The notes beneath the pieces were generated by a model. It searched no databases and had not been told where the DNA came from. It saw only the letters and a program-made list of their open reading frames with translations. A stretch of DNA of 64,000 bases from Rhodospirillales bacterium (lineage in GTDB: Bacteria; Pseudomonadota; Gammaproteobacteria; Burkholderiales; Burkholderiaceae_D): positions 1 to 64,000 of the forward strand of contig CAJCID010000118.1 in NCBI GenBank assembly GCA_903970305.1. Direction: 5' to 3'. Positions 1 through 26,542 of this stretch are shown piece after piece. Numbering within the stretch: position 1 is the stretch's first letter; each line of letters begins with the position of its first letter. The position numbers were made by a program, and so were the translations under genes.

Positions 1-676
<676 letters not shown>

Positions 677-688
677 GGAGACCACGCC

Positions 689-1387: not shown

Positions 1388-2817
1388 ATCGCCTGAACCT
1401 GACCCTGTCGCGGAACTGGACTCGTCTGAGTCCCCAGTTCCTGCCCTTCGCCGACGCGGCCACGACCGAGTTGCCGATCAGAAGGCTGCTGCGCCTCGCC
1501 CTCTTCCAGGTGTCCGTCGGCATGGCCACCGTGCTCTTGATCGGCACGTTGAACCGCGTGATGATCGTTGAATTGGGCGTACCGGCTTGGCTGGTCGCCC
1601 TGATGCTGTCGCTGCCGCTCGTCTTCGCGCCCTTTCGGGCTCTGGTGGGCTTTCGGTCTGACCACCATCGCTCGCTTTTGGGCTGGCGTCGCGTGCCCTA
1701 CCTCTGGATGGGTACCCTCTTGCAGTTCGGCGGGTTGGCCATCATGCCCTTCGCGCTCATCGTCCTGTCTGGCGACACCCATGGCCCGGTGCTCTTTGGT
1801 CAGATCGGCGCGGCGCTCGCCTTCCTTTTGATCGGCGCGGGGTTGCACACGACGCAGACCGTGGGTCTGGCTCTTGCGACCGACCTTGCTCCGCCCGAGG
1901 CCCAGCCGCGCGTGGTCGCACTGTTGTGCGTGATGTTGCTCTTGGGCATGGCGGCGAGCGCCTTGCTCTTTGGTGCGCTGCTCGCCCACTTCTCTCAGTT
2001 GCGCCTGATCCAGGTCGTGCAGGGTGCCGCGGTCACGACCATGCTCGTCAATCTCGTGGCGCTTTGGAAGCAGGAGGCCCGTAATCCCGCGGCGACTGCA
2101 GGCAAGCGTGAGCGTCCCGACTTTGGCGCCTCGTGGAGATCCTTCACCGCCACCAGACGGGCGAGGCGCAGCCTCGTCGCCGTCGGACTGGGCACGGCTG
2201 CCTTCAGCATGGAAGATGTGCTTCTTGAACCTTACGGCGGCCAGGTCCTGCACCTCTCGGTGGGCGCGACGACGGCACTGACTGCACTGCTTGCCGTAGG
2301 TGGGCTCGTCGGCTTCACGATCGCAGCCAAACGCCTTGGCAGAGGAGCCGATCCGTATCGGCTTTCGGCCGGCGGCGTGCTCATCGGGGTGATCGCCTTT
2401 TGCGCGGTGATCTTCGCGGCACCTTTCGACTCCCCCGTCCTCTTTGGCCTGGGAACGAGCTTGATCGGCTTGGGCGGCGGCCTGTTCGCCCATTGCACCC
2501 TGACCGCCGCGATGCGCCACGCCCAAGGCGGCCAGATCGGACTTGCGCTGGGCGTCTGGGGAGCAGTCCAGGCCTCGGCCGCCGGGCTCGCCATCGCGTC
2601 CGGCGGGATGATCCGCGATGCGGTGACCGCCGTGGCGATGCAAGGTGCGCTGGGCGAGGCGCTGGCCAATGCAGCCACCGGATACAGTGTCGTCTACCAC
2701 GTTGAAATCGCACTACTGTTTGCCACGCTCGTTGCGGTCGGACCTCTTGTCGCCCGCCGCCGGGCCGAGCCTGCGCAAGGCGCTTCACCCTTCCACCTAG
2801 CCCGCGTCACGGGCTAG
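1384..2817 (+). CDS. lhaA: LhaA/PucC-family light-harvesting complex 1 assembly protein
   Basis: A 477-residue major-facilitator-type membrane protein with about twelve hydrophobic segments. LhaA (PucC family) proteins are needed for LH1 assembly around the reaction centre. The conserved stretches PLVFAPFRALVGFRSD and PYLWMGTLLQFGG early in the protein are characteristic of the family. Its ATG overlaps the bchM stop by 4 bp, and puhA follows after a strong hairpin. The position between bchM and puhA is the usual lhaA location, which favours LhaA over an LH2-specific PucC. Confidence 0.92.
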   Translation: MNRLNLTLSRNWTRLSPQFLPFADAATTELPIRRLLRLALFQVSVGMATVLLIGTLNRVMIVELGVPAWLVALMLSLPLVFAPFRALVGFRSDHHRSLLGWRRVPYLWMGTLLQFGGLAIMPFALIVLSGDTHGPVLFGQIGAALAFLLIGAGLHTTQTVGLALATDLAPPEAQPRVVALLCVMLLLGMAASALLFGALLAHFSQLRLIQVVQGAAVTTMLVNLVALWKQEARNPAATAGKRERPDFGASWRSFTATRRARRSLVAVGLGTAAFSMEDVLLEPYGGQVLHLSVGATTALTALLAVGGLVGFTIAAKRLGRGADPYRLSAGGVLIGVIAFCAVIFAAPFDSPVLFGLGTSLIGLGGGLFAHCTLTAAMRHAQGGQIGLALGVWGAVQASAAGLAIASGGMIRDAVTAVAMQGALGEALANAATGYSVVYHVEIALLFATLVAVGPLVARRRAEPAQGASPFHLARVTG

Positions 2818-2820
2818 GTG
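2794..2820 (+). promoter_or_regulatory. Intercistronic hairpin at the lhaA/puhA junction
   Basis: Perfect 11-bp inverted repeat CACCTAGCCCG (2794-2804) and CGGGCTAGGTG (2810-2820) around a 5-base loop. The lhaA stop codon (2815-2817) lies inside the right arm. No T-run follows, so it does not look like a Rho-independent terminator. Its position is more consistent with an mRNA-processing or stabilising element that lets puhA accumulate separately from the upstream genes. The role is inference. Confidence 0.75.
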
Positions 2821-2834
2821 CCCCCGCTTCATTC

Positions 2835-2847
2835 TGGAGAACCTCCA
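2835..2847 (+). promoter_or_regulatory. Small hairpin covering the puhA ribosome-binding site
   Basis: TGGAG (2835-2839), AAC, CTCCA (2843-2847) can form a 5-bp stem with a 3-base loop. The left arm is the Shine-Dalgarno sequence and the right arm includes the A of the puhA ATG, so pairing would mask initiation. Visible in sequence; any regulatory effect is inference, since such a short stem is marginally stable. Confidence 0.4.
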
Positions 2848-3614
2848 TGTCAACCGGTGCCCTGACCAGCTACTTCGATGTCGCACAAATCACCCTTTAC
2901 GGCTTCTGGCTGTTTTTTGCAGGTCTCATCCTTTACCTGCGCACTGAGGACAAGCGCGAGGGCTATCCGCTGGAATCGGATCTGCCCGATCGCATTCGCG
3001 CGCAGGGATTTCCATCGGTCCCCAAACCCAAGGAGTATCTGCTGCAGCGCGGCGGCATCCGGGTCGTGCCAAGTGACGCCGGGGACTCGCTCCCCGAAGG
3101 AACCGAGAAAGGCCTCCCTGGGCAACCCCTTGAGACCGGCAGCGACCCGCTCACCGAGGGCATTGGTCCGGGCTCCTACACGTTGCGCCGGGACACACCT
3201 GACCTTACGGTCGACGGCCACCCGAAGATCCTGCCGTTACGGATCGCGACCGCCTATTCGGTCGAGCCACGCGACCCGGATCCACGCGGCATGGATGTCG
3301 TGGGCGCCGACGGTCACGTCGGGGGTGTGGTACGCGACCTGTGGGTCGATCAGGCAGACTACCTGTTTCGCTACCTCGAAGTCGAGGTGAGCGGCAGTGC
3401 CGGCAAGCACGTGCTCTTGCCGATCAACTTCACGCGGATCGATGGCCGGCACCGCAAGGTCCGGGTCGCCTCGATCCTGGGCAGCCAGTTCGCCCTGGCA
3501 CCGGTGTTGAAGAATCCCGACCAGGTGACATTCCAGGAAGAGGATCGTATCGTAGGCTTCTACGGCGGCGGAACACTCTACGCATCGCCCGAGCGTGGTG
3601 AGCCACTGATCTGA
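2847..3614 (+). CDS. puhA: PuhA, photosynthetic reaction centre H subunit
   Basis: The H subunit caps the cytoplasmic face of the L/M reaction-centre core and tunes QB protonation. The 255 residues are the usual length. A single N-terminal transmembrane helix at about residues 13-32 (ITLYGFWLFFAGLILYL) is followed by the family hallmark RTEDKREGYPLE. The C-terminal half (about 130-245) is the PRC-barrel-like cytoplasmic domain. The start has GGAG 8 bases upstream. It sits first in the puh block behind the 2794-2820 hairpin, and puhB follows 46 bp downstream. Confidence 0.97.
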   Translation: MSTGALTSYFDVAQITLYGFWLFFAGLILYLRTEDKREGYPLESDLPDRIRAQGFPSVPKPKEYLLQRGGIRVVPSDAGDSLPEGTEKGLPGQPLETGSDPLTEGIGPGSYTLRRDTPDLTVDGHPKILPLRIATAYSVEPRDPDPRGMDVVGADGHVGGVVRDLWVDQADYLFRYLEVEVSGSAGKHVLLPINFTRIDGRHRKVRVASILGSQFALAPVLKNPDQVTFQEEDRIVGFYGGGTLYASPERGEPLI

Positions 3615-3660
3615 GTTCGGCTGCCCGCCGTATTTGCAGAACAAGTTAAGGAGATTGACC

Positions 3661-4365
3661 GTGAACACCCAGCATGAACATGAACTCGAGCCGATCCCCG
3701 GTCTACCGGAAGCTTTGCCTCCCGGCGAAACAATCCTCTGGCAGGGGCGGCCCGACGGCCTTGCCCTGGCGCGCCGGGCGTTCCATGCGCGCGGGCTGGC
3801 CCTCTATTTCGGCGTCATCCTTCTGGTCCGGCTCGCGCTCCTCTACTCCAATCCGCAGGCTGAGTGGACGCGCGCGACATTCACAGGCTTTATCGTGTTG
3901 AGTACGCTAGCGGCGCTGGCCATCGGCATCCTGTGCACGCTTGCCTGGCTCGTCAGCCGCACGACCCTGTACACGATCACCAACCGGCGCGTGGTCCTGC
4001 GCATCGGCGTGGTCTTGTGCATCACCTTCAATCTGCCCTTTAGCGCCATCGAGAGGGCTGGCCTGCGCACCTATTCGGACGGCACGGGCGACATCCCCCT
4101 AACGCTAAAGAGCCCGAACAAGATCGCCTTCTTCCATCTGTGGCCGCATGCCCGGCCCTGGCACCTGACCCATCCCCAACCGATGCTGCGTGCCATCCCC
4201 GAGGCGGCCCGAGTCGGTGAGATCCTCGCCTTGGCCTGCACGGCTGAGCTCCCTGGCATCGCAAGCCGAAGCGAGAACGGTGCGCCTGCCGAATCGAAGT
4301 TGCGCGGCGCGCCGGGCCGCCCTCGCGCAGTGCCAGCAGGCCTGTCCTCGGCGCTGCACTCCTAG
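3661..4365 (+). CDS. puhB: PuhB, reaction-centre assembly protein
   Basis: PuhB helps assemble the reaction centre and RC-LH1 core. The protein is 234 residues from the chosen GTG, which has AAGGAG centred about 10 bases upstream; earlier in-frame codons lack a ribosome-binding site. Three hydrophobic segments lie in the first 125 residues or so, and TLYTITNRRVVLRIG marks the bacterial PH-like (YdbS-type) domain. The C-terminal 30 residues or so are low-complexity and probably variable. puhC starts 10 bp after the stop. Confidence 0.9.
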   Translation: MNTQHEHELEPIPGLPEALPPGETILWQGRPDGLALARRAFHARGLALYFGVILLVRLALLYSNPQAEWTRATFTGFIVLSTLAALAIGILCTLAWLVSRTTLYTITNRRVVLRIGVVLCITFNLPFSAIERAGLRTYSDGTGDIPLTLKSPNKIAFFHLWPHARPWHLTHPQPMLRAIPEAARVGEILALACTAELPGIASRSENGAPAESKLRGAPGRPRAVPAGLSSALHS

Positions 4366-4375
4366 GAGATATTGC

Positions 4376-4840
4376 ATGAGCCAGTCCCAAGCAAACGACG
4401 CCTTTCCGCGCGCGCCTCTGATCGGGGCCGCTCTTCTCGTGCTCTGCTCGCTCGCGGTCGTCTCGGCCGTACGCTGGACCGGGGTCGGATCCTCGCATAA
4501 CCCGGACGCGGCGACCCTTGCGGTACGCGAGCTGCGCTTTGAGGATCGGCCCGACGGCAGCATCGCGGTCACCGACGCGCGTTCGGGCGAACTCGTCGAG
4601 ACCGTCGAGGGTCAGCAGGGCTTCCTGCGCGGCACACTAAGGGGACTCACCCGCGAGCGCCGGCGCGAGGGGTTCGGTCCTGAGCAGCCCTTCCGGCTGG
4701 TGGCACACGCCGACGGCAGACTGACCCTGGAAGACCCGGCGACGCGCCGCAGGATCGATCTGGAATCTTTTGGCCCGACCAACGAGTCCGTCTTCGCCGC
4801 CATGCTCGGTCCTGAGTCGCAGCAGGGCTCCGTGCGATGA
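4376..4840 (+). CDS. puhC: PuhC, photosynthetic complex assembly protein
   Basis: 154 residues with one N-terminal membrane anchor at about residues 15-32 (LIGAALLVLCSLAVVSAV) and a periplasmic domain containing LRFEDRPDGSIAVTDA, typical of PuhC. PuhC supports RC-LH1 assembly and organisation in Rhodobacter. The ATG at 4376 follows AGGAGATATTGC. The open frame extends much further upstream, but that part overlaps puhB and carries no plausible start. acsF begins 49 bp downstream. Confidence 0.9.
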   Translation: MSQSQANDAFPRAPLIGAALLVLCSLAVVSAVRWTGVGSSHNPDAATLAVRELRFEDRPDGSIAVTDARSGELVETVEGQQGFLRGTLRGLTRERRREGFGPEQPFRLVAHADGRLTLEDPATRRRIDLESFGPTNESVFAAMLGPESQQGSVR

Positions 4841-4889
4841 CTAGGTCCCTTCAGGATGTGCTGCACGATCTGCAATCGAGGAGTACGCA

Positions 4890-5954
4890 ATGAATAGCAC
4901 CACGCGAGCTGCCAGTCCCAACCAGGCGACCCAGAAGGCCCTCGAGGACACGGTCCTCACCCCGCGGTTTTACACCACCGACTTCAATGCGATGGACCGG
5001 ATCAACGTCGATTCGATCCGGCCCCAATGGCAGGCCCTGATCGACGAGTTCCGGCGCGACAGCAACAGCGACCACTTCGAGCGTCCCGCCGACATGGTGG
5101 GCGACTATTCCCAGCTGCCACCCGCCCTCCACGAAGAATTTGTCGATTTCATGATCAGCTCAGTCACCGCCGAATTCTCCGGATGCGTACTGTATGCCGA
5201 CATCAAAAAGCATGTGAAAAATCCGGACATACGTGAGTTGTTCGGCTTCATGGCGCGCGACGAGAGTCGCCATGCGGGCTTCATCAATCAGTGGCTGAAG
5301 GACTTCGGCATCGGGGTCGACCTCGGGTTTCTGACACACGCCAAGAAATACACCTTCTTTCGGCCCAAGTTCATTTTCTATGCCACCTATCTGTCCGAGA
5401 AGATCGGTTATGCCCGTTACATCACGATCTACCGCCAGACCGAGCGCCATCCGGAACTGCGCTTTCATCCGATCTTCCGCTGGTTCGAGAGGTGGTGCAA
5501 CGACGAGTTTCGCCATGGCGAGGCGTTTGCCTTGCTGATGCGCGCCAACCCGCATCTGGTCACGGGGCTTAACAAGTTCTGGATCCGCTTTTTCGTGCTC
5601 GCGGTCTTTGCGACCATGTATGTGCGCGATCACGAGCGGCCCGAACTGCACAAGGCGCTCGGCATGGATCCGACCGAGTACGATTTCACGGTGTTTCGGA
5701 TCACGTCCGCGATCTCGCGCCAGATCTTCCCGCTCACTCTTAATCTTGACGATCCGCGCTTTGCCAGCGGGCTGGAACGGCTCAGACGCATTGCGGCGGG
5801 CATTGACGCGGCCAAGGCCCAGGGAGGCCTGGCAGGTCTTTGCAAGCGCGGCGTTCTCGCCGCCCGAGCCGCGCTGGTCTTTGCCAGGCTCTATTGCCTG
5901 CCGGCCCAGCAGCACGCGCTGCCCCAAGAAGTCCGTATGGTTCCCACCTGGTAA
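4890..5954 (+). CDS. acsF: AcsF, aerobic Mg-protoporphyrin IX monomethyl ester cyclase
   Basis: The oxygen-dependent diiron enzyme that forms ring E (protochlorophyllide) from Mg-protoporphyrin monomethyl ester. It is 354 residues long. Diiron ligand motifs are visible: a first Glu at about 95 (VTAEFSGC), E125xxH128 in DESRHAG, and a second DEFRHGEAF near residue 205. A strong GAGG ribosome-binding site precedes ATG 4890. An AcsF gene inside the photosynthesis operon is common in beta- and some alpha- and gammaproteobacteria and shows that bacteriochlorophyll can be made with O2 present, while the neighbouring BchL is oxygen-sensitive but light-independent. Confidence 0.96.
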
Positions 5955-5962
5955 GCGAGCTC

Positions 5963-6799
5963 ATGTCCGAATATGTCTTCCCGGTTCTCTACACGTTGTT
6001 CGTGTGGTGGTTCAGCACGGGCGTGATCCTGTATCTGGACGGTTTGCCCCGCTGGACGCATCGCTGGACGATGCTGCTCACGACCCAGGTCTTGGTCTTT
6101 GCGCTCTATGCGCTGGCCCAGACGCGCTCGGACACGAGCGTACTGGGGGCCTATCTCGCCTTTACCTGCGGCGTACTGGTCTGGGCCTGGCAGGAGGTCG
6201 GCTTCCTCCTGGGCTTTCTGACCGGACCGCGGCGCTCGGCGTGCCCGCAGGGTGCACGCGGATGGCCCCGCTTTCGCTTTGCTCTCGAGACGATCTGGCA
6301 CCACGAACTCGCGCTCGTGGCGATGGCGGCCATCGTGTTTGCGGTCGTGTCAGACGGCCCGAACCAGATCGGGCTCAAAACCTACCTCTTGCTCTGGGTC
6401 ATGCGTCAAAGCGCGAAGCTGAACCTGTTCTTTGGGGTCCGCAATCTGAGCGAGGAGTTCCTGCCGGACCACTTGCAGTATCTGGCGAGCTATTACCGCA
6501 GGCGGCCCATGAACGCCTTCTACCCCCTCTCGGTGGCCTTGGCGACGATCCTCGTCATCTTTCTTGGACGTGCAGCGGGCGCAACCGGCGCCTCGCCGGC
6601 CACGGTGACCGGATTGGTCTTCCTCGTCACCCTCCTCTCGCTTGCGATCCTCGAGCACGGCTTTCTGATGCTGCCTTTGCCGACGCTCGTGCTATGGAAC
6701 TGGAGCCTTAAGTCGCGCGCGCCTGCCTTGGACGAACGACCTGCCGAAGAGAGTCCAAGGCGCGTTGCAGTGGGACTGATTGCGGCCCACGAAGACTAG
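5963..6799 (+). CDS. puhE: PuhE, DUF3623 membrane protein of the photosynthesis cluster
   Basis: 278 residues with about seven hydrophobic segments and the DUF3623 motifs FVWWFSTGVILYLDG near the N-terminus, then KTYLLLWVMRQSAKLNLFFG and PDHLQYLASYY in the middle. PuhE affects bacteriochlorophyll production in Rhodobacter, but its mechanism is unknown. The ATG at 5963 lies 8 bp after the acsF stop. In many purple bacteria hemA follows; here the next gene is a ClC channel, so the operon probably ends with puhE. Confidence 0.92.
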   Translation: MSEYVFPVLYTLFVWWFSTGVILYLDGLPRWTHRWTMLLTTQVLVFALYALAQTRSDTSVLGAYLAFTCGVLVWAWQEVGFLLGFLTGPRRSACPQGARGWPRFRFALETIWHHELALVAMAAIVFAVVSDGPNQIGLKTYLLLWVMRQSAKLNLFFGVRNLSEEFLPDHLQYLASYYRRRPMNAFYPLSVALATILVIFLGRAAGATGASPATVTGLVFLVTLLSLAILEHGFLMLPLPTLVLWNWSLKSRAPALDERPAEESPRRVAVGLIAAHED

Positions 6800-6958: not shown

Positions 6959-8278
6959 ATGCATATCTCCCGCCGCTCCCAGCACCTGCTTCTCTCCCGG
7001 CCACTCTGGAATCGCCGCATCTGGTTCCTTGGCGGGGCGCTCCTCGTCGGTTCTGCATCGGTCGGCTTTGCGCTCTGCGCGAACTGGGCCAACGAGGTCT
7101 TCCGGCGACTTCTGGCCTGGAACGGCTATGCGCCCTTGCTGCTCACGCCTTTGGGCTTTGGCCTCATCTCCTGGATAACCCGGCGCTATTTCCCCGGCGC
7201 CCAGGGCAGCGGTATCCCGCAGACCATTGCCGCACTTTCGGCGAGTTCGGCGACTCGCGCGCGGCTTTTGTCCCCCAAGATCGCCATCGGCAAGGCGCTC
7301 CTGACGATCCTGGGCCTGCTCGCCGGTGCATCGATCGGTCGCGAGGGCCCGACCGTCCAGATCGGCGCAGCCTTGATGTACTCGCTTTCGCGGTCCAAGT
7401 TCTTTCCTTATGAACGCATGCATCGCGGTCTGATCCTGGCCGGCGGCGCAGCAGGCGTGGCCGCCGCCTTCAATGCACCGCTCGCCGGGGTCGTCTTCGC
7501 CATCGAAGAAATGAGCCGATCCTTCGAGCACCGTACCGTGAGCATCGTCATCACAGCGGTCATCGTGGCAGGCGTCATCTCTTTGGCGGTGCTGGGCAAC
7601 TATGCCTACTTCGGTCGGACCTCGGAAGGCGTCGATCTCGTCTCCGGATGGAAGGCCGTGGTTCTGTGCGGGATTCTGGGAGGATTGCTCGGAGGCACGT
7701 TCAGTCGGCTTCTCGTTTGGATCAGTCAGACCCTTCCCACGCGGCTTCTCGCCTCGGGCCGGATCAGTCCGGTCACCTTTGCCGCCGCATGCGGCCTGGT
7801 TCTCGCCCTGATCGGACTCTTCTCGGGCAATGTGATCTATGGGACCGGCTACGACGAGGCCAGCGGACTCCTCGTGGGCAGGAGCTCTGGCTATAGCTTT
7901 GGGATTCTGAAGCTGGCCGCGACCCTCGTATCCTACGCGAGCGGGATTCCGGGGGGCATCTTCGCACCCTCATTGGCCGTTGGGGCGGGATTGGGGCAGG
8001 ATCTGCAGATACTGCTGCCCGCAGCGCCTGCGGCCGTCGTGGTCCTGCTGGGGATGGTCGGCTACTTCTCAGGCGTGGTCCAGGTGCCGCTCACGGCCTT
8101 CATCATCGTTCTCGAAATGACCGAGGATGCCCAGCTCGCCCTGCCCCTCATGGCGTGTGCGCTCATCGCCTATGCGGTCTCGCGCCTGGTCTGTCCGCAT
8201 TCACTCTACAAATCGCTGGCCCGACCCTTTAGGGTCCCGGTGGCGCCGGTGGCGCCGCCGGCCGCACCGCGGCCCTGA
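6959..8278 (+). CDS. ClC-family chloride channel or Cl-/H+ antiporter
   Basis: 439 residues with ten or more membrane segments. The ClC ion-path signatures are clear: GSGIPQ at about residues 82-87 and GREGPTVQIG at about 124-133, with the gating glutamate preserved. The latter favours an antiporter or gated channel, but the two cannot be separated by reading. There are no C-terminal CBS domains. Its stop codon overlaps the start of the next gene (TGATG), so the two are translationally coupled. The 6800-6958 gap holds only the hairpin listed separately. Confidence 0.9.
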   Translation: MHISRRSQHLLLSRPLWNRRIWFLGGALLVGSASVGFALCANWANEVFRRLLAWNGYAPLLLTPLGFGLISWITRRYFPGAQGSGIPQTIAALSASSATRARLLSPKIAIGKALLTILGLLAGASIGREGPTVQIGAALMYSLSRSKFFPYERMHRGLILAGGAAGVAAAFNAPLAGVVFAIEEMSRSFEHRTVSIVITAVIVAGVISLAVLGNYAYFGRTSEGVDLVSGWKAVVLCGILGGLLGGTFSRLLVWISQTLPTRLLASGRISPVTFAAACGLVLALIGLFSGNVIYGTGYDEASGLLVGRSSGYSFGILKLAATLVSYASGIPGGIFAPSLAVGAGLGQDLQILLPAAPAAVVVLLGMVGYFSGVVQVPLTAFIIVLEMTEDAQLALPLMACALIAYAVSRLVCPHSLYKSLARPFRVPVAPVAPPAAPRP

Positions 8279-9411
8279 TGGAGTCGTTGGATTGCGTCGT
8301 GATCGGAGCCGGGGTGGTGGGCCTGGCTGCGGCCCGCGCTCTGGCGCTCGCGGGTCGCGAAGTGGTCGTGCTCGAGGCAGAGAAGTCCATCGGCACGGGC
8401 ATCAGCTCACGCAACAGCGAAGTCATCCACGCCGGCCTGTACTATCCGGAGGGCTCGCACAAGGCCAGACTCTGCCCGAAGGGCAATGCGCTGCTGTACG
8501 CGTACTGCGAGCAGCGCAAGATCGCCCATCGCCGCCTCGGTAAACTCGTCATCGCCACAGAGCGCGAGCAGATCGGCGTGCTCAAGGCGCTTCGCGCCGC
8601 GGCGCAGGCGGCCGGGGTCCCCGAACTCCAATGGCTCGCGCCCGAAGAGGTCGGCGTGCTCGAGCCCGAGTTGTCGTGCGTGGCGGGACTTTTTAGTCCG
8701 ACTTCAGGGATCGTCGATTCCCACGCCCTGATGCTCTCTTTGCAAGCGGATGCCGAGGAGGCCGGCGCGCTCTTCGCCTTCCAGAGTCCGGTCATCTCGG
8801 GCGCAATCTCTGATCCGGGCCCGATCCTGACCGTGGGCACTGAGCCCAGTCTTTCCGTGCGCGCTTTAACCGTCGTCAATTGCGCCGGCCTTGGCGCGCA
8901 GGGACTCGCGCGCAGCATCAGAGGACTTGCGCCAGAGAGCATTCCCGAGGAGAGCTTTGCCAAGGGCTGCTACTTCTCGTTGACGACCCCTTCGCCGTTC
9001 GCGCATCTGGTCTATCCAGTACCCGAACCAGGCGGCCTTGGCGTTCATCTCACGCTCGATCTGGCCGGCCGCGCTCGTTTTGGCCCGGATGTGGAGTGGC
9101 TCGAGACGACCGACGTGTTGGCGCTGGACTACCGGGTCGATCCGTCCCGCGCGGCCTCCTTTACCCAGGCGATCCGCCGCTACTGGCCTGGTCTGCCCGA
9201 GAATGCATTGGTGCCGGACTATGCCGGTGTGCGTCCAAAGCTCAAAAGGGCGCAACGGGGCTTTAGCGACTTCATACTGTCCGGACCACAAAGCCACGGA
9301 GCACGCGGTCTTTACAACCTCTTTGCCATCGAGTCGCCCGGTCTGACATGCTGCCTTGCACTCGGGGACTGGATCCTGGCCCTGGTCTCGCAAGAAAAGC
9401 GCCACGCCTAG
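8278..9411 (+). CDS. FAD-dependent oxidoreductase, L-2-hydroxyglutarate dehydrogenase-like
   Basis: 377 residues of the DAO/GlpD-type flavin oxidoreductase superfamily. The N-terminal FAD-binding motif is VVIGAGVVGLAAARAL, followed by the SSRNSEVIHAGLYYP segment typical of LhgO-like enzymes. YAGVRPKL and a C-terminal GLYNLFAIESPGLT complete the fold. Family members oxidise 2-hydroxy acids and feed electrons to quinone; the actual substrate here is unproven. The start overlaps the ClC gene stop. Confidence 0.85.
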   Translation: MESLDCVVIGAGVVGLAAARALALAGREVVVLEAEKSIGTGISSRNSEVIHAGLYYPEGSHKARLCPKGNALLYAYCEQRKIAHRRLGKLVIATEREQIGVLKALRAAAQAAGVPELQWLAPEEVGVLEPELSCVAGLFSPTSGIVDSHALMLSLQADAEEAGALFAFQSPVISGAISDPGPILTVGTEPSLSVRALTVVNCAGLGAQGLARSIRGLAPESIPEESFAKGCYFSLTTPSPFAHLVYPVPEPGGLGVHLTLDLAGRARFGPDVEWLETTDVLALDYRVDPSRAASFTQAIRRYWPGLPENALVPDYAGVRPKLKRAQRGFSDFILSGPQSHGARGLYNLFAIESPGLTCCLALGDWILALVSQEKRHA

Positions 9412-9465
9412 GTCGAATGCCCGTCGCGAAGGCCGAGCGGCAAGCAGGCTCAATCGGTGGTGGGC

Positions 9466-9861
9466 TTAGGCCATGTGCTCGATATCTTCGGGCAGACTCA
9501 CCCAAGGATGCATGCGCTCTTCGTAGACCGAGAACGTGGGTGGCGGAAAACTCGATTCTGCGAAGGCGCCCACGGGAATGACAATACTGTCTTCGCGACC
9601 TTCCGCGGCGAAGTAGACGGTGGCGCCGCACACCGGGCAGAAGGTGAACCTGGCCCTTCCTCCTTCGTCTCCAACCCGGACATACGCCGTACCTTCTCCG
9701 CTGATCTCGACGGCTTCTCGGGCAAACCTTGCTTGAGCCCCAAAGACACTTCCGGTACGGCGCTGACAGGCATGGCAATGACAGACCGACACCCGGATCG
9801 GTTCTCCAGAGACTTTGGCAGAGAGCTGGCCGCAACTGCAAGACGCGATTCGATAGGTCAT
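9466..9861 (-). CDS. GFA-family zinc protein (glutathione-dependent formaldehyde-activating enzyme-like)
   Basis: 131 residues from ATG 9861, with CCGGAG 6 bases upstream. The open frame extends to 9933 but without a better start. The zinc-binding cysteines of the Gfa/CENP-V fold are present: SCSCGQLS at the N-terminus, CHCHACQRRTGS in the middle, and FCPVCGATVYF later. Most family members are of unknown function and few are proven formaldehyde-activating enzymes, so the substrate is left open. The gene is convergent with the upstream oxidoreductase. Confidence 0.85.
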   Translation of the reverse strand: MTYRIASCSCGQLSAKVSGEPIRVSVCHCHACQRRTGSVFGAQARFAREAVEISGEGTAYVRVGDEGGRARFTFCPVCGATVYFAAEGREDSIVIPVGAFAESSFPPPTFSVYEERMHPWVSLPEDIEHMA

Positions 9862-10033
9862 GGTGCTCCGGAAGTAGGACTTGTCTGACGCCTCTAAGAG
9901 ATCTTCGGCAGCATCAATGCGTAGCTGCCCCAAGGCGGATCTTGCCAGCAGTTGAAGTCAATGAAAAGGCTCGCGAGCGCTTAAGCCGGCCCCCCGAGTG
10001 CCGTCGGCTCCGGGGTATCATGTGCGGGAGCCG

Positions 10034-10103
10034 CAGTGCGACTCGGTGCGACTCAGTGCGACTCAGTGCGACTTAATGCGACTTAGTGCGACTCGCTGCG
10101 AGT
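10034..10103. repeat. Seven-copy 10-bp tandem repeat
   Basis: Degenerate head-to-tail units of the form CAGTGCGACT repeat with a strict 10-bp period (about one helical turn), with variants CGGTGCGACT, TAATGCGACT and TAGTGCGACT. The array lies between the divergently oriented GFA gene (minus) and the MoaD-like gene (plus), about 70 bp upstream of the latter. There are no spacers, so it is not a CRISPR array. It may be a phase-aligned protein-binding or copy-number-variable element. Confidence 0.85.
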
Positions 10104-10174
10104 GCTCATCGGGGCACGACCCAGGTCCGCGCCGCGCGACGACGTGGGATCACTTTTGGTACGGGCGAGGCGCC

Positions 10175-10444
10175 ATGGCGACAGTCATCTTCACCCAACA
10201 TTTGGCCCGCTTCTTGGATTGCCCCAATCAACCGGTCTGCGCGGGAACGCTTGGCGCCGCGCTCGACGAGGCCTGCCGGGTCAACCCTAACCTGAGAGCC
10301 TATGTTCTGGACGAACAGGGACATCTGCGCCGGCACGTCGCGGTCTTCATCGACGGTCGCCGTGTGCGCGATCGGCGCGAGCTTTCTGACCTTGTGGCCC
10401 CGGACAGCACGGTCCACGTGCTCCAGGCGCTCTCTGGAGGTTGA
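10175..10444 (+). CDS. MoaD/ThiS-like ubiquitin-fold sulfur carrier
   Basis: 89 residues with a beta-grasp pattern and a C-terminal VHVLQALSGG. The terminal di-glycine is the residue pair that becomes adenylated and thiocarboxylated in MoaD and ThiS. The protein is longer than typical ThiS. No moaE, thiG or E1-like gene is nearby, so the acceptor pathway is unknown. The ATG at 10175 is the only sensible start. Two bases separate its stop from the next ATG, and the shared GGAGG (10436-10440) lies inside its last codons, so the pair is tightly coupled. Confidence 0.75.
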   Translation: MATVIFTQHLARFLDCPNQPVCAGTLGAALDEACRVNPNLRAYVLDEQGHLRRHVAVFIDGRRVRDRRELSDLVAPDSTVHVLQALSGG

Positions 10445-19091: not shown

Positions 19092-22000
19092 ATGGAGCGG
19101 ACTTGCAATGGGCTCTGGCGCCACCGCCTGGACAGAAAGAGCCTCTTGGGCATGCTTTTTGTCCTGTGCACGCTGTGCATGGTCTTTGGCATGCGCTCGG
19201 CCCATGCGCTTAATCCAGGCAATCCCACCGCCGGCGCCACCCTTTACAACGGGCCCGCCAGCGCCACCAATCCGGATTGTGCCGGATGTCACGGCGCTCC
19301 GCCGAACGCTGCGAACACGACCGGAATCTCGGCCGCCTCGAACAGTTCAACCCTGATTTACGACGCCGCGAACACGCCCGGGGTCAATGGGCCCGGAGGT
19401 ACCGGCAACAGCTGCACCGGCGGTATGTGTACCGATCCGGGCGTCGAAGCCAGCATTGCGCCGATCGGCATGGCCCAAAACCGCCTGGATGTCGCGGCTT
19501 ATATCGGTCAGTGGGCGACGCCCGTGATCGCCACCTCGCCCGTGAATCTGGGCAACCCAACTCCGGTAGCGTACAACACGCCCCTGGCGATTAACGTGGC
19601 GAACTATGTATCGGGGGGATTCACCGGAGGGACAGTCTCTGAGGCGAATCTGATCGCCGGCGGCACGCCCAGCTACATCACCGTCACGCCCAGCGCGCAT
19701 AGCGCCATCACCTACGGGGGTTCGGGCACGGCGTTCACCTACACACCGGATACAACGCTCTACAACACGACCGATACCGTGACCTATACCGTGACCTCGG
19801 CAAACGGGGGCACGTCCACATCGGGCACCATCAACATCACGATCGGTCCTCCTCCCGCGCCCACCCCGCAGAACCAGACGATCGCGACGGCAGTGGCCTA
19901 TCAGACGACGACGACGCTGACCTTGGACAACACCAAGATCACCGGCATCTCGACGGGAATCTCGCTGCCAACGACGACAACGACGCTTGGGGGCACGATC
20001 GCCGCTGCAGGCGGGTACAACGTCACCTACACGCCGCCTAACGGCACGTATTCGGCGGTCAACGGTAACGACACCTTCACCTACAAGGCCGTCGGGCCGG
20101 GCGGGACGAGCACGACGACGGCAACCGTCACGGTGACCATTGCCAACCCCAACCCCGGGCCGCACGCCTACACCGCGACGGTGGCGTTCAATAGCGGTGC
20201 GCCAATCCAGAGCAGCCCGATCAATATCACCAACGCCTTCACCAATCCCGGCCAGGCCAATTCCTATGTGCTCGACACCACGGGCATCAAGGGCACCGCG
20301 ACCCTGAGCGGCACCACGGTCACCTACACCCCGCCTGCGACCCAGAGCGGCGCGGGCCTTGATCAGTTCAAGGTCGAAGCGGTCTCGGCCGGCCTCACCT
20401 CGGCCGCTGCCACGGTCACCGTCAATGTGGCACCCCCTGGTCCGCCCGTCTTGGGCGGGGTGACGAGCCTGAGCATCAACGGCAGCTACAACACGGGAGC
20501 GATCTCGACGCCACCGGTCAACGTGGCCTCTTATTTCACGGGCTATATCACGGGCTTTACGATCACCCCCGGCGGCGGCAACAAGGGAACGGCGACGATC
20601 GATGCGAGCGGCAATCTGACCTATACGGGCCCGGTGAACGCGACCACGACCGATACCTTCGCGGTGCGGGCCACCAATTCCGGTGGCACCCAAAGTTCGG
20701 TTGCAGCGTTGGCCGTCACGGTGACCGTACCGACTCCGGGCACACCCACTGCCGGTCTGGATACGGTCTCTGTACCCTATAACACGGCCACGCCGATCAA
20801 CCTGGCCAGCGTTATCACGGGCGTTCTCGATCCGACGACTCCGGTGATTCTCGCCCAGGCACCCAAATATGGCACGGCAACAGTTGCCGGCACGACTGTG
20901 ACCTATACGGGTAATGTCGGCTACTACGGCAAGCAGGACAGCTTCACGTACAAGGCGCATGGCCCCGGCGGTACCTCGCCGGCTGCGACCGTGACGCTCA
21001 ATGTCGGACTGCCTCCGGCGCCGGGCGCGGCCGCCAGCACTTTGGCGGCCATCTATCAGGTGCCGGCGACGATCGATCTGACCTCCAGTGTGAGCGGCAT
21101 CGCCACCGGCGTTGCCGTGGACACCCAGCCTGCGCACGGCACCGCGGTGGCGAGCGGCTACCGCATCACCTATACGCCAGCGGCAGGGTTTCTCGGCGCC
21201 GACAGCTTCACCTACAGCTCGGTCGGTCCGGGAGGAAATTCCGCCCCCAGCACGATCACGGTGAAGGTCACCGCCCTGCCCACGACAGCGCCAACGGTGA
21301 ACATGATGGTCGGCTTGAATAGCCCCAGCACCCTGAATCTTGCAAACTTCATCACCGGCTCGGGCATCACAGGCGTAGAGATCCTGACCCAGCCTGCCCA
21401 CGGCAGCGTGACCGTCAACGGCACGCAGGTCACCTATACCCCGGTGCCTAATTTCTTTGGCAAGGACACCTTCACCTATCGCGCCTTCGGGGTCGCAGGC
21501 CAGGCGACCGGCACGGTCGTGGTGACCGTCTTTGGCCGGCCCGACCCAAGCCAGGACGCCGACGTGAACGGGCTGATCGATGCCCAGGACGCCCAGGCGA
21601 GACGCTTCACCCGGGTGCAGATCGACAACTTCCAGGAGCGCATGAACAGTCTGCATCATGCGCCGCCGCCCGTCGATGAGACTCCACCTGCTACGGCGAG
21701 CCGTGCGCCCAGCCAGGCCCAGGCGCTTGGGTCCGTATCTGTCGCGGGAGCGGGCATCACCACGAGTCCCGGCGCCCCGCTGGGTAATGGGCTCGTGCCG
21801 GCCCTGGCCGCCGCAGGCAATCCGCGGCCCCAGCCGGCGGGTCCCGTTGTCGATCCATTTGCCGATTCTCCGAGCGCGGCGATGCCGGACCCTGCCCTGG
21901 ACACGCCCTCGGGCCAGTACCGGCTGATGCTGCCCGCCTCGGGCGCGATTGTCGCAGGGGGTGCAGGGGGTGGCGCGGGCCCGTCCGGTGCAGGCTTGGC

Positions 22001-23771
22001 CGGCGGGATGGCCATGACCAACCTCGCCTCACTCGATCTGGCAAGCGTGGTCAATGGCGTGACAAAGGGCCTGGACGCCGGCAGCGGCATCGGCTTTTGG
22101 GCGACAGGTGCCCTGAACTTCGGGAATCGCGAGCAGCCCAACGCGCTCTCCGACGGGCTGAAGTTCCACACCGATGGCTTAAGCCTTGGCGCGGACCGGC
22201 GCGTCAGTGACAATCTGGTCCTCGGATTGGGAGTGGGCTATGCCTACGATCGAACCTTCGTCGGAACCGACGGCACCCAAAGCCAAGCCAGCGGCACGGT
22301 GCTCGCGGCCTACGCAAGCTACCAACCGACGCCCTCGATCTACATCGACAGCGTCATCGGCGCGGGAAACCTCAGTTTCGATTCAGTGCGCTTTGTCGCC
22401 CCGATCGATGCCGTCGCGAGCGGCCACCGTTCGGGACAGCAGGCCTTCGCATCGGTCACGGCGGGCTACCAGTTCCAGGAAGCCGGGTTCCAGTGGTCTC
22501 CCTACGGCCGGATCGATCTGGCCACGGACCGCCTGCACGCCTACACCGAGACCGGCGCGCAAAACTATGCGCTCACCTATGGAGCGCAAAGCGTGCCCAC
22601 CGAGGAGCTGGCTCTCGGTGTGCGGGCCGATCTCGTGCACGAGACCAGTTTTGGATCGGTCTCGCCCCATGCGCGCATCGAATACGAGCATGACTTCGAA
22701 GGTCAGACGACAGCGACGGTCGCCTATGCTGACCTCCTCAACAGTACGAGCTATGGCATCACAACCAACGCAATCGATCGCAATGCCTGGGTGGGCGGTG
22801 TCGGGGTCGACTTCAACTTCGCGCACGGACTGCGCCTGGGCATCGACTACGAGGCGCTGCGCGCAGTGGGTGCCGAGAACAGCCAGATGATCCGCTTTAA
22901 GCTCTCGGAGGATCTCGATGGGGGCCTTCTGCCCGACTTCTCCCTGGCGCCTTGGTCAGGCCGGGGCTTGGGCCTTAGGGCCGATGCCTCCTACACCTTC
23001 GATGACAACGTCACGCGCAATGACGGGGCCGACAAACTCTCCGACCAGTCCTACAGCCTCAGATTGGTCAGACCCTTCCTCGTGCCCTTGGGGGACAACC
23101 TCCGGGCGATCGTGACTCCCTTTGTCGGAGGGGAGAAGTTTGTCGACTATGGCGGACTGAACCACTCGGTCTACGGCGCGAACGGCGAACTCCAGTATCG
23201 CGGCGCGGGCGACTTCGACAGTCCGATCTACGCCCTCTTCCTGCACGCCAATGGCGAGGATTACAACTCCTACGAGCGCACGGGCTACCGCTACTCGGTG
23301 GGACTGTCGGTGAACAAGCCCCTGACAGACCGGATCTCGCTCTTTGGAGCCTTGGCCTATGACGATCGCCACGCCAACAGCAGCGTTTTCGACGATCAGG
23401 ACGGCTCGGCGCGCCTGAACCTGGATTACGCCCTCGGTTCGCGCGCCACCGTCTATCTGTCTGGAGAATACCGGCGCGGTGACGTGGTCTCGGTCGGACA
23501 GGGCGACCTCGGAGACTTCAATATCGCAAGCGTCATTGTGCGCGACGACGCCTTTAGCGATTCCTCCATCACGCGCTTTGCCTATCGCTTCCGGGCGGAC
23601 ACGTACCTGCTCGGGCTGGGCTACAACTATGCCCTGGGTGAACGCGACTCGCTCGATCTGTCGTGGCGCTGGGCGCAGTCGACGCCGCTGCACCAGCCCA
23701 ACTATGCCAACGCGGCTTTCATCCGCTATTTCGACAATCAACTGACCGTGGTTTACCTGGTCCGGTTCTAG
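19092..23771 (+). CDS. Giant outer-membrane protein: heme-c motif, Ig-like repeats, autotransporter barrel and a second beta-barrel
   Basis: 1559 residues. A signal peptide ends at SAHA (about 39). Residues 40-141 hold one c-type heme motif, C63-A-G-C66-H67, in a small cytochrome-like segment. Residues about 142-812 comprise about seven cadherin/Ig-like repeats of roughly 95 residues, each ending in variants of DTFTYKAVGPGGTS plus a TVTVTV strand. A Gly/Pro/Ala-rich linker (813-995, with DPSQDADVNGLIDAQDAQ) leads to an autotransporter-type barrel (about 997-1275). A further barrel (about 1278-1559) begins near RADASYTFDDNVTR and ends in VVYLVRF with the C-terminal Phe used for BAM insertion. 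The start has GGAGG 7 bases upstream. The function is unknown: adhesin, electron conduit or both. Confidence 0.8.
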   Translation: MERTCNGLWRHRLDRKSLLGMLFVLCTLCMVFGMRSAHALNPGNPTAGATLYNGPASATNPDCAGCHGAPPNAANTTGISAASNSSTLIYDAANTPGVNGPGGTGNSCTGGMCTDPGVEASIAPIGMAQNRLDVAAYIGQWATPVIATSPVNLGNPTPVAYNTPLAINVANYVSGGFTGGTVSEANLIAGGTPSYITVTPSAHSAITYGGSGTAFTYTPDTTLYNTTDTVTYTVTSANGGTSTSGTINITIGPPPAPTPQNQTIATAVAYQTTTTLTLDNTKITGISTGISLPTTTTTLGGTIAAAGGYNVTYTPPNGTYSAVNGNDTFTYKAVGPGGTSTTTATVTVTIANPNPGPHAYTATVAFNSGAPIQSSPINITNAFTNPGQANSYVLDTTGIKGTATLSGTTVTYTPPATQSGAGLDQFKVEAVSAGLTSAAATVTVNVAPPGPPVLGGVTSLSINGSYNTGAISTPPVNVASYFTGYITGFTITPGGGNKGTATIDASGNLTYTGPVNATTTDTFAVRATNSGGTQSSVAALAVTVTVPTPGTPTAGLDTVSVPYNTATPINLASVITGVLDPTTPVILAQAPKYGTATVAGTTVTYTGNVGYYGKQDSFTYKAHGPGGTSPAATVTLNVGLPPAPGAAASTLAAIYQVPATIDLTSSVSGIATGVAVDTQPAHGTAVASGYRITYTPAAGFLGADSFTYSSVGPGGNSAPSTITVKVTALPTTAPTVNMMVGLNSPSTLNLANFITGSGITGVEILTQPAHGSVTVNGTQVTYTPVPNFFGKDTFTYRAFGVAGQATGTVVVTVFGRPDPSQDADVNGLIDAQDAQARRFTRVQIDNFQERMNSLHHAPPPVDETPPATASRAPSQAQALGSVSVAGAGITTSPGAPLGNGLVPALAAAGNPRPQPAGPVVDPFADSPSAAMPDPALDTPSGQYRLMLPASGAIVAGGAGGGAGPSGAGLAGGMAMTNLASLDLASVVNGVTKGLDAGSGIGFWATGALNFGNREQPNALSDGLKFHTDGLSLGADRRVSDNLVLGLGVGYAYDRTFVGTDGTQSQASGTVLAAYASYQPTPSIYIDSVIGAGNLSFDSVRFVAPIDAVASGHRSGQQAFASVTAGYQFQEAGFQWSPYGRIDLATDRLHAYTETGAQNYALTYGAQSVPTEELALGVRADLVHETSFGSVSPHARIEYEHDFEGQTTATVAYADLLNSTSYGITTNAIDRNAWVGGVGVDFNFAHGLRLGIDYEALRAVGAENSQMIRFKLSEDLDGGLLPDFSLAPWSGRGLGLRADASYTFDDNVTRNDGADKLSDQSYSLRLVRPFLVPLGDNLRAIVTPFVGGEKFVDYGGLNHSVYGANGELQYRGAGDFDSPIYALFLHANGEDYNSYERTGYRYSVGLSVNKPLTDRISLFGALAYDDRHANSSVFDDQDGSARLNLDYALGSRATVYLSGEYRRGDVVSVGQGDLGDFNIASVIVRDDAFSDSSITRFAYRFRADTYLLGLGYNYALGERDSLDLSWRWAQSTPLHQPNYANAAFIRYFDNQLTVVYLVRF

Positions 23772-23782
23772 AGGATTTGATC

Positions 23783-25789
23783 GTGAACACTCGGCACTAC
23801 CTGCGTCTTCTTGCCATGCTCTGCGTGGCGCACCTGACCCTCGTCGTGGCCGGCTGCGGTGGCGGCGGAGGGGGCTCCAGCGCCGACGCGACCACCACCC
23901 CGCCCCCCTCGACCGCGGGCAGCACCCCGCCACCGGTTCCGGCAGGGCCGAACAGCTTCTTGATGTTCCCCAATCCCCAGCTCCAATCCGACGGAGTGGA
24001 CCAGACCAACAGCACCGACTACACCAACGCCTATTATCAGGCGATCGATCCGAGCAACCAGCGCGCCAGTCTGGCGCAGTTTGAATCCGTCAACGGGTTC
24101 GGCAGCGGCACCGGTACCGAGTTCACCGTCATCTTCAGCGATACCACCGATCTGGGCTACGGGCGCAGGCTCACCGCGCGACGCAATCCCGACGGAACAC
24201 TCGCCTTCGTGGTGGAGAACTATCTGGTGGGCGGTTTTGGCAGTTATGGATCAGGGGCAGGCCAGGCGGCGCTCAATCTCCAAGCGGCGATCAGTCGGGA
24301 CACGCGCTGGCGCGTCGAGATCAACGGCATCGAATTTAGCCCCGCCCCGGCGGGCACGGTCAGTTTTGCGAAGTTCTACGCCTTCGACACCACCACCGAA
24401 GCGCGCCTTCTGCAAGGCACGCTGGACAACCGGGGACCCAAGGCGATGCCTTCGGTGTGCATCAGTTGCCATGGCGGACGCGGCGATGCGCTCACGCCCC
24501 CGGCGGCAAACGGCTTGCCGCTTTTCCCCTTGGTCTATAACTCGGTCTCGCAGGCCCGTGGCGACACCCAGGCGCGTCTCCAACCCCTGGCGGTGAACCT
24601 GCAGACGTTTGCCACCGACGGCGCCTACACGCGCGCCAACCAGGAAGCCAATCTCAAGCTCTTGAACGAGTGGATCTTGTGCAGCTACCCCCTATCAGCC
24701 CCCTCCAGCGCTCCTGAAGACGCCTGCCGCCGGGCTGCGAGCGGCAACGAGTGGCAGGGTGACACGGCGGCCACGCTCATCAAGGATGCCTATGGCGGTC
24801 CGGGTCTGCCCAACGCGACCTATGTCGACACCTACGAGCCTTCTGACTGGATCTCCTTTGGTCAACAGACGCTCTATAAGACGAGCGTCGCCACCTCCTG
24901 TCGCGTCTGCCACCAGCTGCGCGGCACAGGCAACCAGTCGGATCTGGATCTGTCCACTTACACGAAGTTTTCGGGGTACACCGACAGGGTCTTCGCGCAT
25001 GTTTTCGACCGCGGCAACATGCCCCTTGCCGAAATCATCTACGCGGCCTTCTGGACCACCGAGCCCGCCAATCCCGCCGCCTATATGGCGACCTACCTCG
25101 AAGGTCAGGGGTATTCGACCTTCTCTGCTTCAGGAGCGGTGCTCAAGCCCGGGCGACCGATAGCGGATCCGGGGCCCGACCGCGTCGTCACCCCGGGCGC
25201 GACGACCCTCACGGCGGCCATGAGTCTGTATGCGACAACCTATAACTGGACGCTCGTCTCAGGTCCCGCCGGAGGCGCAACCCTAACCGGGGTCACGGGA
25301 GTCCAGCCGGTCTTTACCGCGAGCCTTGCGGGCACCTATGTCGTCCAGCTCGTGGTCGGCAATGGCACCCAACAGAGTCCGCCGGCCCAACAGACGATCG
25401 TGGTCAGTAGCAGTCTCTCCCCCGCGCCCAGCGCGATCCGCTGGGTCGATGTCAAGGGAGTGCTCCAGGGGGCCACGGGAGATTGTGCGAGTTGCCACTA
25501 TCCCAATACCGCCTCAACTGGCGTGCCCCCCATCTTCTATACCGACTTCGACCGCAATGGCGATGGCGTCGTCGATGCGACCGACGACCTGTGGTTCTAT
25601 ACGGAGGTGCGCGGCCGGATCAACTTCACCGACTACATTGCCAGTCCGCTGTTACGCAAACCCTCGGGAAATCATCACTTCGGAGGACTTCGGCCCGGGT
25701 TTGACACCACGGCCGTCCCAGGCGATCCGGCACGCCAGAGCTACGATCTCATCGTGAACTGGATCTTAAACGGTGCGCCCTACCAGTAG
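23783..25789 (+). CDS. Triheme c-type cytochrome lipoprotein with an Ig/PKD-like domain
   Basis: 668 residues from GTG 23783, which has GAGGA 7 bases upstream. A lipobox LVVAGC with Cys25 is followed by a Gly run and a Thr/Pro-rich tether, so the protein should be lipid-anchored. Three CxxCH heme motifs are present: CISCH (about 226), CRVCH (about 373) and CASCH (about 568). A PKD/Ig-like segment (about 455-555) lies between the second and third, and a DRNGDGVVDATDD calcium-like loop follows the third. It starts 11 bp after the giant barrel protein, so they are very likely one operon and partners. It may donate to or accept electrons from the surface protein; this is inference. Confidence 0.85.
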   Translation: MNTRHYLRLLAMLCVAHLTLVVAGCGGGGGGSSADATTTPPPSTAGSTPPPVPAGPNSFLMFPNPQLQSDGVDQTNSTDYTNAYYQAIDPSNQRASLAQFESVNGFGSGTGTEFTVIFSDTTDLGYGRRLTARRNPDGTLAFVVENYLVGGFGSYGSGAGQAALNLQAAISRDTRWRVEINGIEFSPAPAGTVSFAKFYAFDTTTEARLLQGTLDNRGPKAMPSVCISCHGGRGDALTPPAANGLPLFPLVYNSVSQARGDTQARLQPLAVNLQTFATDGAYTRANQEANLKLLNEWILCSYPLSAPSSAPEDACRRAASGNEWQGDTAATLIKDAYGGPGLPNATYVDTYEPSDWISFGQQTLYKTSVATSCRVCHQLRGTGNQSDLDLSTYTKFSGYTDRVFAHVFDRGNMPLAEIIYAAFWTTEPANPAAYMATYLEGQGYSTFSASGAVLKPGRPIADPGPDRVVTPGATTLTAAMSLYATTYNWTLVSGPAGGATLTGVTGVQPVFTASLAGTYVVQLVVGNGTQQSPPAQQTIVVSSSLSPAPSAIRWVDVKGVLQGATGDCASCHYPNTASTGVPPIFYTDFDRNGDGVVDATDDLWFYTEVRGRINFTDYIASPLLRKPSGNHHFGGLRPGFDTTAVPGDPARQSYDLIVNWILNGAPYQ

Positions 25790-25804: not shown

Positions 25805-26542
25805 TCAGTAGTCACGGCGTGGCGCGCTGTAGAGCGACCCGGGGAAAACCCAGGGCGGCGTACGCCCGACAAGCGTCTCGATGAGCGCCAGTTCCTGATC
25901 GGTGTGGTTGATGAAGGGCGCATTGCGGATGGAGGCACCCGCCGGCGCATTCTTGAGGATGTAAAGCGGATTGTCGTGGTGCGTTGCGACCACTGTTTTC
26001 TGGCTTTCGGGATCATCGATCGCGGTGGTGTCCGAGATCCCATAGCAGGTGCAAAAGTAGGTCCGCTCCGGATCGGATTCCATATAGACGCCGGTGCCGC
26101 GGATTCCGATCGTGGCCGAGGGCGTGCGCAACGCCAGGCCGCTACTGCGCGAAACCGACAGGATCGCTCCCTGTATCAAGCGTAAGCCACTGATCAGAAA
26201 CGAGTCCGTCGAGTCCTTCTTCGAGGCGAGCTCGAGATGACTGTTGGCGCGCAGGATCATCGAGTTGCCGCCGACGACAAAGATGATCTCGCTATCGGGA
26301 CCAGTCTCGACGGTGTCTTGTGCGGTCACGCGGGTCTCGAGGGTGGCCGGTTTGCCATTCACGCTGGCCGTACCGGAGATTTTGTAGATGGATTGACCCT
26401 CGGGCAACTTCGAGGGGGCCCGCCCGAACAACTCGTCGCCGAGGGCCTGTCTTGCCGGCAGCGCCGCGGAAAAAAGCCCCATCGCCAAGGCCTGGACCAG
26501 GATACGACGACGCGGGTCATCGGCTTCGCCAGAACGACTCAT
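25805..26542 (-). CDS. FecR-domain protein, exported by a Tat-like signal
   Basis: 245 residues. A twin-arginine leader (RRRILVQALAMGLF) precedes the FecR beta domain (about 50-160; LETRVTAQDTVETGPDSEI and TPSATIGIRGTGVY). It then carries the unusual C164-T-C166-Y-G motif and a C-terminal tail with a HHDNP segment. Unlike FecR proper there is no anti-sigma region or membrane helix before the domain, so it is probably a periplasmic or surface accessory protein. AAGGGGAAGGGG precedes the ATG. It converges on the triheme lipoprotein gene with a 15-bp gap, suggesting association with that module. Confidence 0.75.
   Translation of the reverse strand: MSRSGEADDPRRRILVQALAMGLFSAALPARQALGDELFGRAPSKLPEGQSIYKISGTASVNGKPATLETRVTAQDTVETGPDSEIIFVVGGNSMILRANSHLELASKKDSTDSFLISGLRLIQGAILSVSRSSGLALRTPSATIGIRGTGVYMESDPERTYFCTCYGISDTTAIDDPESQKTVVATHHDNPLYILKNAPAGASIRNAPFINHTDQELALIETLVGRTPPWVFPGSLYSAPRRDY

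Follow-up and report, generated by a model that had tools for sequence, protein, structure and literature searches.

A fused monoheme, Ig-repeat, and double-barrel protein with split relatives in other gammaproteobacterial orders: a candidate surface electron-relay module

The fused open reading frame and its N-terminal heme domain

The window, that is, the whole 64,000-nucleotide stretch of DNA that was analyzed, comes from a bog-derived photosynthetic bacterium. An intact open reading frame (19092..23771, + strand) encodes a protein of 1559 amino acids in which a monoheme domain, an Ig-like stalk, and two barrels are fused in one chain. The initial annotation had called this architecture unfamiliar, and our literature searches, which covered open-access texts only, likewise yielded no paper describing it. 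The signal peptide (aa 1 to 39; 19092..19208, +), read from the sequence, has a long N-region and a cleavage site ...SAHA/L without a lipobox. As had been noticed from the letters alone, a single CxxCH follows at the exported N-terminus: the heme c attachment motif CAGCH (C63 to H67; 19278..19292, +), which is supported by the alignment. When the mature chain was shuffled 20,000 times, a CxxCH arose once. The chain itself contains only four Cys (63, 66, 108, and 113).

The surrounding region (aa ~44 to 143; 19221..19520, +) is assigned to the class I cytochrome c domains by sequence comparison, because a profile of ten orthologous domains matches the cytochromes c6, c4, and CcoP of the PDB (CcoP, 1.2e-7; c6, 1.9e-6, over nearly the full domain), a profile built without the rows of the window protein and of L027 still recovers window residues 46 to 143 (iE 1.6e-8), and PF00034 is matched in orthologs. 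Seven of the ten heme domains match PF00034 at E ≤ 1, and the ortholog at locus L080 exceeds the cut-off (22.6 versus 21.3 bits); the window domain is not among the seven and on its own stays below Pfam reporting for this family. The leave-out profile misses the four most divergent heme domains (L031, L082, L094, and L096). An AlphaFold model of the heme domain with the first Ig repeat (6 rows) reached a pLDDT of 44, too low for use. A candidate axial ligand, M112, lies in CTGGMC (aa 108 to 113; 19413..19430, +) between C108 and C113, the sole Cys of the mature chain outside the heme motif. It aligns with the Met of xGMG in several orthologs, within a variable loop; Met112 is a reasonable guess for the axial ligand of the heme.

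The heme domain is followed by a stalk of about seven Ig-like repeats (aa ~150 to 815; 19539..21536, +), which had earlier been read as Ig/cadherin-like and are matched by Pfam Big_9 in 7 stretches (E 2e-34). Their number and type differ among orthologs. Ahead of the barrels, the alignment reveals a conserved junction, RPDPSxD...ARRFxRxQIxNFQxRMxSLH (21537..21671, +), common also to relatives that end after the first barrel. An antisense open frame of 770 aa crosses the repeats (19347-21659, −) and is probably a reading-frame artifact of high GC content.

Two consecutive barrels

Barrel 1 (aa ~1000 to 1275; 22089..22916, +) is an autotransporter β-domain of 12 strands. The initial annotation had likewise named an autotransporter barrel. 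PF03797 is complete (model positions 1 to 255 of 255, residues 1002 to 1254, E 5e-43), and the structural matches are to EstA, NalP, and EspP. Barrel 2 (aa ~1295 to 1559; 22974..23768, +), modeled as a 12-strand outer-membrane barrel and supported by stand-alone homologs, ends the chain with ...YLVRF and hence with the C-terminal Phe that had been noted. No Pfam family scored above cut-off on these last ~265 residues, and a PDB sequence search with barrel 2 gave no convincing relative. PF11854 (MtrB/PioB) did not match the window protein; one barrel-2 relative reached 15.7 bits against a cut-off of 23.

In the AlphaFold2 model of the two barrels (24 sequences; mean pLDDT 80, pTM 0.55), 12 strands (residues 1000 to 1275) and another 12 (1295 to 1556) are joined by a low-confidence linker of ~20 residues, and Foldseek returned the autotransporter EstA as the best match. 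The VIA-align matches, which barely cover model residues past ~345 and say nothing on known folds for barrel 2, extend to residue ~345 and are best for 14-strand barrels (CymA, Z 27.5; OmpG). Such matches would suit a C-terminal 560-residue region built of 14 + 10 strands, or of one large barrel, rather than of two 12-strand barrels, and the model may assign two strands from the start of barrel 2 to barrel 1. The strand partition is thus left open by the model, while homology argues for 12 + 12: about 15 relatives stop at barrel 1, after strand 12, and barrel 2 is also encoded on its own, preceded by a signal peptide, which makes the two barrels separable. Any other partition therefore appears very unlikely. 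For a single merged barrel, nothing speaks beyond the ambiguity of the model, which did not superpose on 22-strand barrels (rmsd ~20 Å).

Secreted proteins of ~300 aa consisting of barrel 2 only are found in the host genome and many others. The host paralog (G000:C232, 2723-3715; L050), a 331-aa frame with its own signal peptide, is 35% identical to the window barrel 2 and adjoins ribonuclease G-like and housekeeping genes. Barrel 2 also occurs in another fusion, behind an N-terminal FimV/HubP-type domain (TIGR03505, 73 bits; L122 8055-9482), and in the phototrophic genus g54 a lone barrel 2 lies beside a gene with a TIR-domain-like start (MAPRRVFLSYSREDKAVL) and no cytochrome (L090 7926-10422).

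Neighboring genes, fused homologs, and split relatives

The gene that starts 11 nt past the stop codon of the fused frame (23783..25789, +) encodes a putative triheme lipoprotein of 668 aa with a lipidation site at Cys25 and a PKD-like domain (Pfam, sequence, and alignment). Sequence and alignment place its CxxCH motifs at aa 226 (CISCH; 24458..24472, +), 373 (CRVCH; 24899..24913, +, with an invariant MP downstream), and 568 (CASCH; 25484..25498, +, with an invariant HH downstream). All three motifs are kept in most of eight aligned relatives, the third varying to Cx3CH or Cx4CH, and many residues around the first (CHGG) are invariant. A PDB sequence search with this protein gave no convincing relative. 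The next gene is convergent (25805..26542, −) and encodes an exported FecR-domain protein of 245 aa, present by the module in most loci (PF04773, 23.0 bits, just below the cut-off of 24).

Wide spacing of the three motifs, the invariant surroundings of the first, and the lack of a dense heme wire would also fit an extracellular enzyme or redox sensor, in which the triheme protein serves as a catalytic partner (one resembling, for instance, a peroxidase or an oxygenase) fed or sensed by the tethered monoheme, with no respiratory electron transfer; the FecR-domain neighbor could hint at envelope sensing. Against this, neither profile nor sequence searches matched a catalytic family, and we regard this explanation as rather unlikely.

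The search for the same architecture that had been proposed led to ten heme-bearing fused homologs, including the window protein, in several genera. Orthologs of the same layout come from one more species of the genus (55% identity) and from three further genera within the family. The genus relative L027 is a Burkholderiales bog metagenome-assembled genome (MAG). Other orthologs found in a scan of genome contigs carry the labels Herminiimonas, Rhodoferax, and Burkholderiales; L028 and L033 are MAGs with doubtful labels. A search of the order added L080, L082, L094, L095, L096, and the heme-less L099, and a search of the class added the heme-less L121. All ten heme-bearing proteins (window, L027, L028, L029, L031, L032, L080, L082, L094, and L096) have a single CxxCH shortly past the signal peptide; L030 and L095 lost their N-termini at contig ends. 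The triheme gene follows the fused gene at every one of the nine heme-bearing loci with enough flank (window, L027, L028, L029, L032, L080, L082, L094, and L096).

Three fused two-barrel proteins, L033, L099, and L121, are without a heme domain; therefore, the double barrel can work without the cytochrome, and its architecture is broader than the heme version. The triheme gene is retained by L033 and absent from L099 and L121, whose genes (4151-6562 and 7956-10367, respectively) encode two-barrel autotransporters with neither a cytochrome domain nor a triheme neighbor.

Barrel 2 is encoded as a protein of its own in other gammaproteobacterial orders, where the genes follow on the same strand in the order Ig/cadherin-repeat protein with an N-terminal heme motif, barrel 2, triheme lipoprotein. 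CxxCH near the N-terminus of the Ig protein directly upstream of barrel 2 was found at L122, L124, L148, L149, and L154; the triheme gene is complete in four of these five loci, and only its start is present in L154, at a contig end. Two split Ig proteins have variant N-terminal motifs (Cx4CH in L150 and CxxxCH in L151), and that of L123 is cut. The chain with the CxxxCH (L151 6621-9566) carries, inside its Ig/TSP3 part, a cytochrome CBB3-type domain above cut-off. In most split forms the N-terminal domain is choice-of-anchor V (choice_anch_V; L122, L124, L149, and L154) and not class I cytochrome c; that of L148 is weakly cytochrome c–like. Near the C-terminus, choice_anch_U scores above cut-off in L122, L148, L149, and L154. 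By eye, the tails of the split Ig proteins resemble sorting signals, of which none exceeds the NCBIfam cut-off (GlyGly-CTERM). The autotransporter barrel 1 stands where the split form has this C-terminal sorting-type tail. At L122, L124, L149, L150, and L154, the module has a FecR-domain gene as a neighbor.

Among 369 genomes of the class, long, strong matches to the triheme protein were found in 11, of which two are partial (G503 and G733), and the barrel-2 gene is directly upstream on the same strand in 9 of the 11; barrel 2 occurs in only 21 of the 369 genomes overall. Not every stand-alone barrel-2 gene has a triheme gene next to it. Since the split relatives encode the heme-Ig protein and barrel 2 as adjoining genes, gene order identifies the window frame as a Rosetta-stone fusion of two normally separate partners.

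These comparisons also bear on whether the protein is simply a giant Ig-repeat autotransporter whose function is adhesion and whose heme is dispensable. The relatives with barrel 1 only are Ig-rich autotransporters without CxxCH, and L033 keeps the triheme gene without a heme domain, as such an adhesin might. However, CxxCH is retained in ten fused proteins although their repeats diverge in number and type, the split forms have the heme motif too, and the triheme neighbor is conserved; we consider an adhesin of this kind quite improbable.

Proposed function and comparison with known systems

The explanation that we find most likely is a surface electron-relay module. That the frame represents the first and second genes of a conserved surface-cytochrome module, fused, and that electron relay is its function is, as judged from sequence comparison, about an even bet. 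Heme would be attached in the periplasm by the Ccm system, and export of the stalk by barrel 1 would expose the cytochrome at the far, N-terminal tip. Barrel 2, beside barrel 1, may act in the outer membrane as a second anchor or as a channel and could be the docking site of the triheme lipoprotein. Together, these parts would then relay electrons between the outer membrane and a donor or acceptor outside the cell (humics, minerals, or other cells).

The host genome contains CcmF of the Ccm maturation system and two MtrB/PioB porin matches; together with the conserved triheme partner, we infer that these genes make electron transfer more likely. Speaking against a relay, the stalk of ~7 Ig domains, tens of nanometers if extended, holds the heme at a distance from the membrane that is too great for electrons to pass directly. 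The variable number of repeats is a weak point, and so are the fused relatives that lack a heme domain.

Export is a further difficulty. Autotransporter pores are narrow, heme attachment precedes export, and a folded, heme-loaded domain may fail to cross; our searches found no precedent for autotransporter export of such a domain. The domain could instead fold in the periplasm and remain on that side, lodged in the mouth of one barrel or next to it, and hand electrons through the outer membrane while the Ig chain loops outside, much as in Cyc2, whose heme is thought to plug the mouth of its barrel (PMC8406198). Contrary to this arrangement, the Cyc2 motif is absent, hundreds of Ig residues separate heme and barrel, unlike in Cyc2, and the heme protein of the split relatives is a separate chain without a barrel. 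A periplasmic plug is thus improbable.

The phototrophic host that had been suspected is confirmed, for the genome, by two reaction-centre (PF00124) genes of PufL/M type, which profile matching found elsewhere in the genome. In the window itself, positions 1-6000 hold genes that by eye resemble those for bacteriochlorophyll and reaction-centre assembly, such as a PuhA-like start at 2847. A tie of the protein to phototrophy does not hold, as most carriers have no reaction centre. In a set of 25 further genomes, carriers or comparisons, reaction-centre genes were found in only six and MtrB/PioB in seven, from which it follows that the module is independent of both. Phototrophy as an explanation was rejected, since reaction-centre genes occur only in the genus of the host and in one further genus.

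More tentatively, with odds somewhat short of even, the N-terminal heme Ig stalk, barrel 2, triheme lipoprotein, and FecR protein may together form an outer-membrane electron-transfer system of a previously undescribed class, which differs from both MtrCAB and Cyc2, is spread over several gammaproteobacterial orders, and is condensed in Burkholderiales into a double-barrel autotransporter exporting a heme-loaded cytochrome. If true, Cyc2 and the porin-cytochrome complexes would be joined by a third type of barrel-linked cytochrome system, one with clear marker genes. This would also exemplify a two-barrel autotransporter in one chain and raise the question of whether a covalently heme-loaded domain can be exported by the type V pathway, for which the natural fused and split versions offer ready-made comparisons.

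The initial annotation had compared the protein with Cyc2-type Fe(II) oxidases and suggested that it might be a larger electron-transfer or redox-sensing adhesin of the cell surface. Of this reading, the class I cytochrome c domain, the two barrels, and the surface-type Ig stalk are borne out, but the protein is not a larger Cyc2. That the frame joins two genes of a wider operon, and that a triheme lipoprotein gene comes next, had escaped the initial annotation. Cyc2 does share with the window protein a single N-terminal heme c domain and an outer-membrane barrel in one chain. It is defined by the motif AxPxFAR[QK][TY] (PMC8406198), and PxFAR[QK][TY] upstream of CxxCH is absent from all ten orthologous heme-domain N-termini; PxL shortly past CxxCH is absent from the window protein and present in one of ten orthologs. 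The barrels differ as well: In Cyc2, a 16-strand porin comes right after the cytochrome, whereas the window protein, with no single 16-strand porin joined directly to the cytochrome, has ~7 Ig repeats, an autotransporter barrel, and a second, unrelated barrel. The triheme partner gene belongs to the window module and not to Cyc2.

Type Va autotransporters, like the window protein, have a complete 12-strand PF03797 translocator behind an exported passenger. Their translocator is C-terminal, whereas here ~285 further residues follow, which form barrel 2 with its terminal Phe, and the passenger carries a heme c motif. In MtrCAB, MtoAB, and PioAB, as in the window module, a barrel is encoded with an outer-membrane multiheme lipoprotein. 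Compared with MtrB, barrel 2 is far smaller, with about 12 strands; no MtrA-like gene was seen in the window cluster, and in place of the dense multiheme wire of an MtrCAB-type conduit, the triheme motifs lie ~150 to 200 aa apart. Last, the surface proteins with Ig/tandem-95 repeats and choice-of-anchor V/U domains have the same repeat type as the split relatives; in the window protein, the place of such domains is taken by a class I cytochrome domain and by two barrels.
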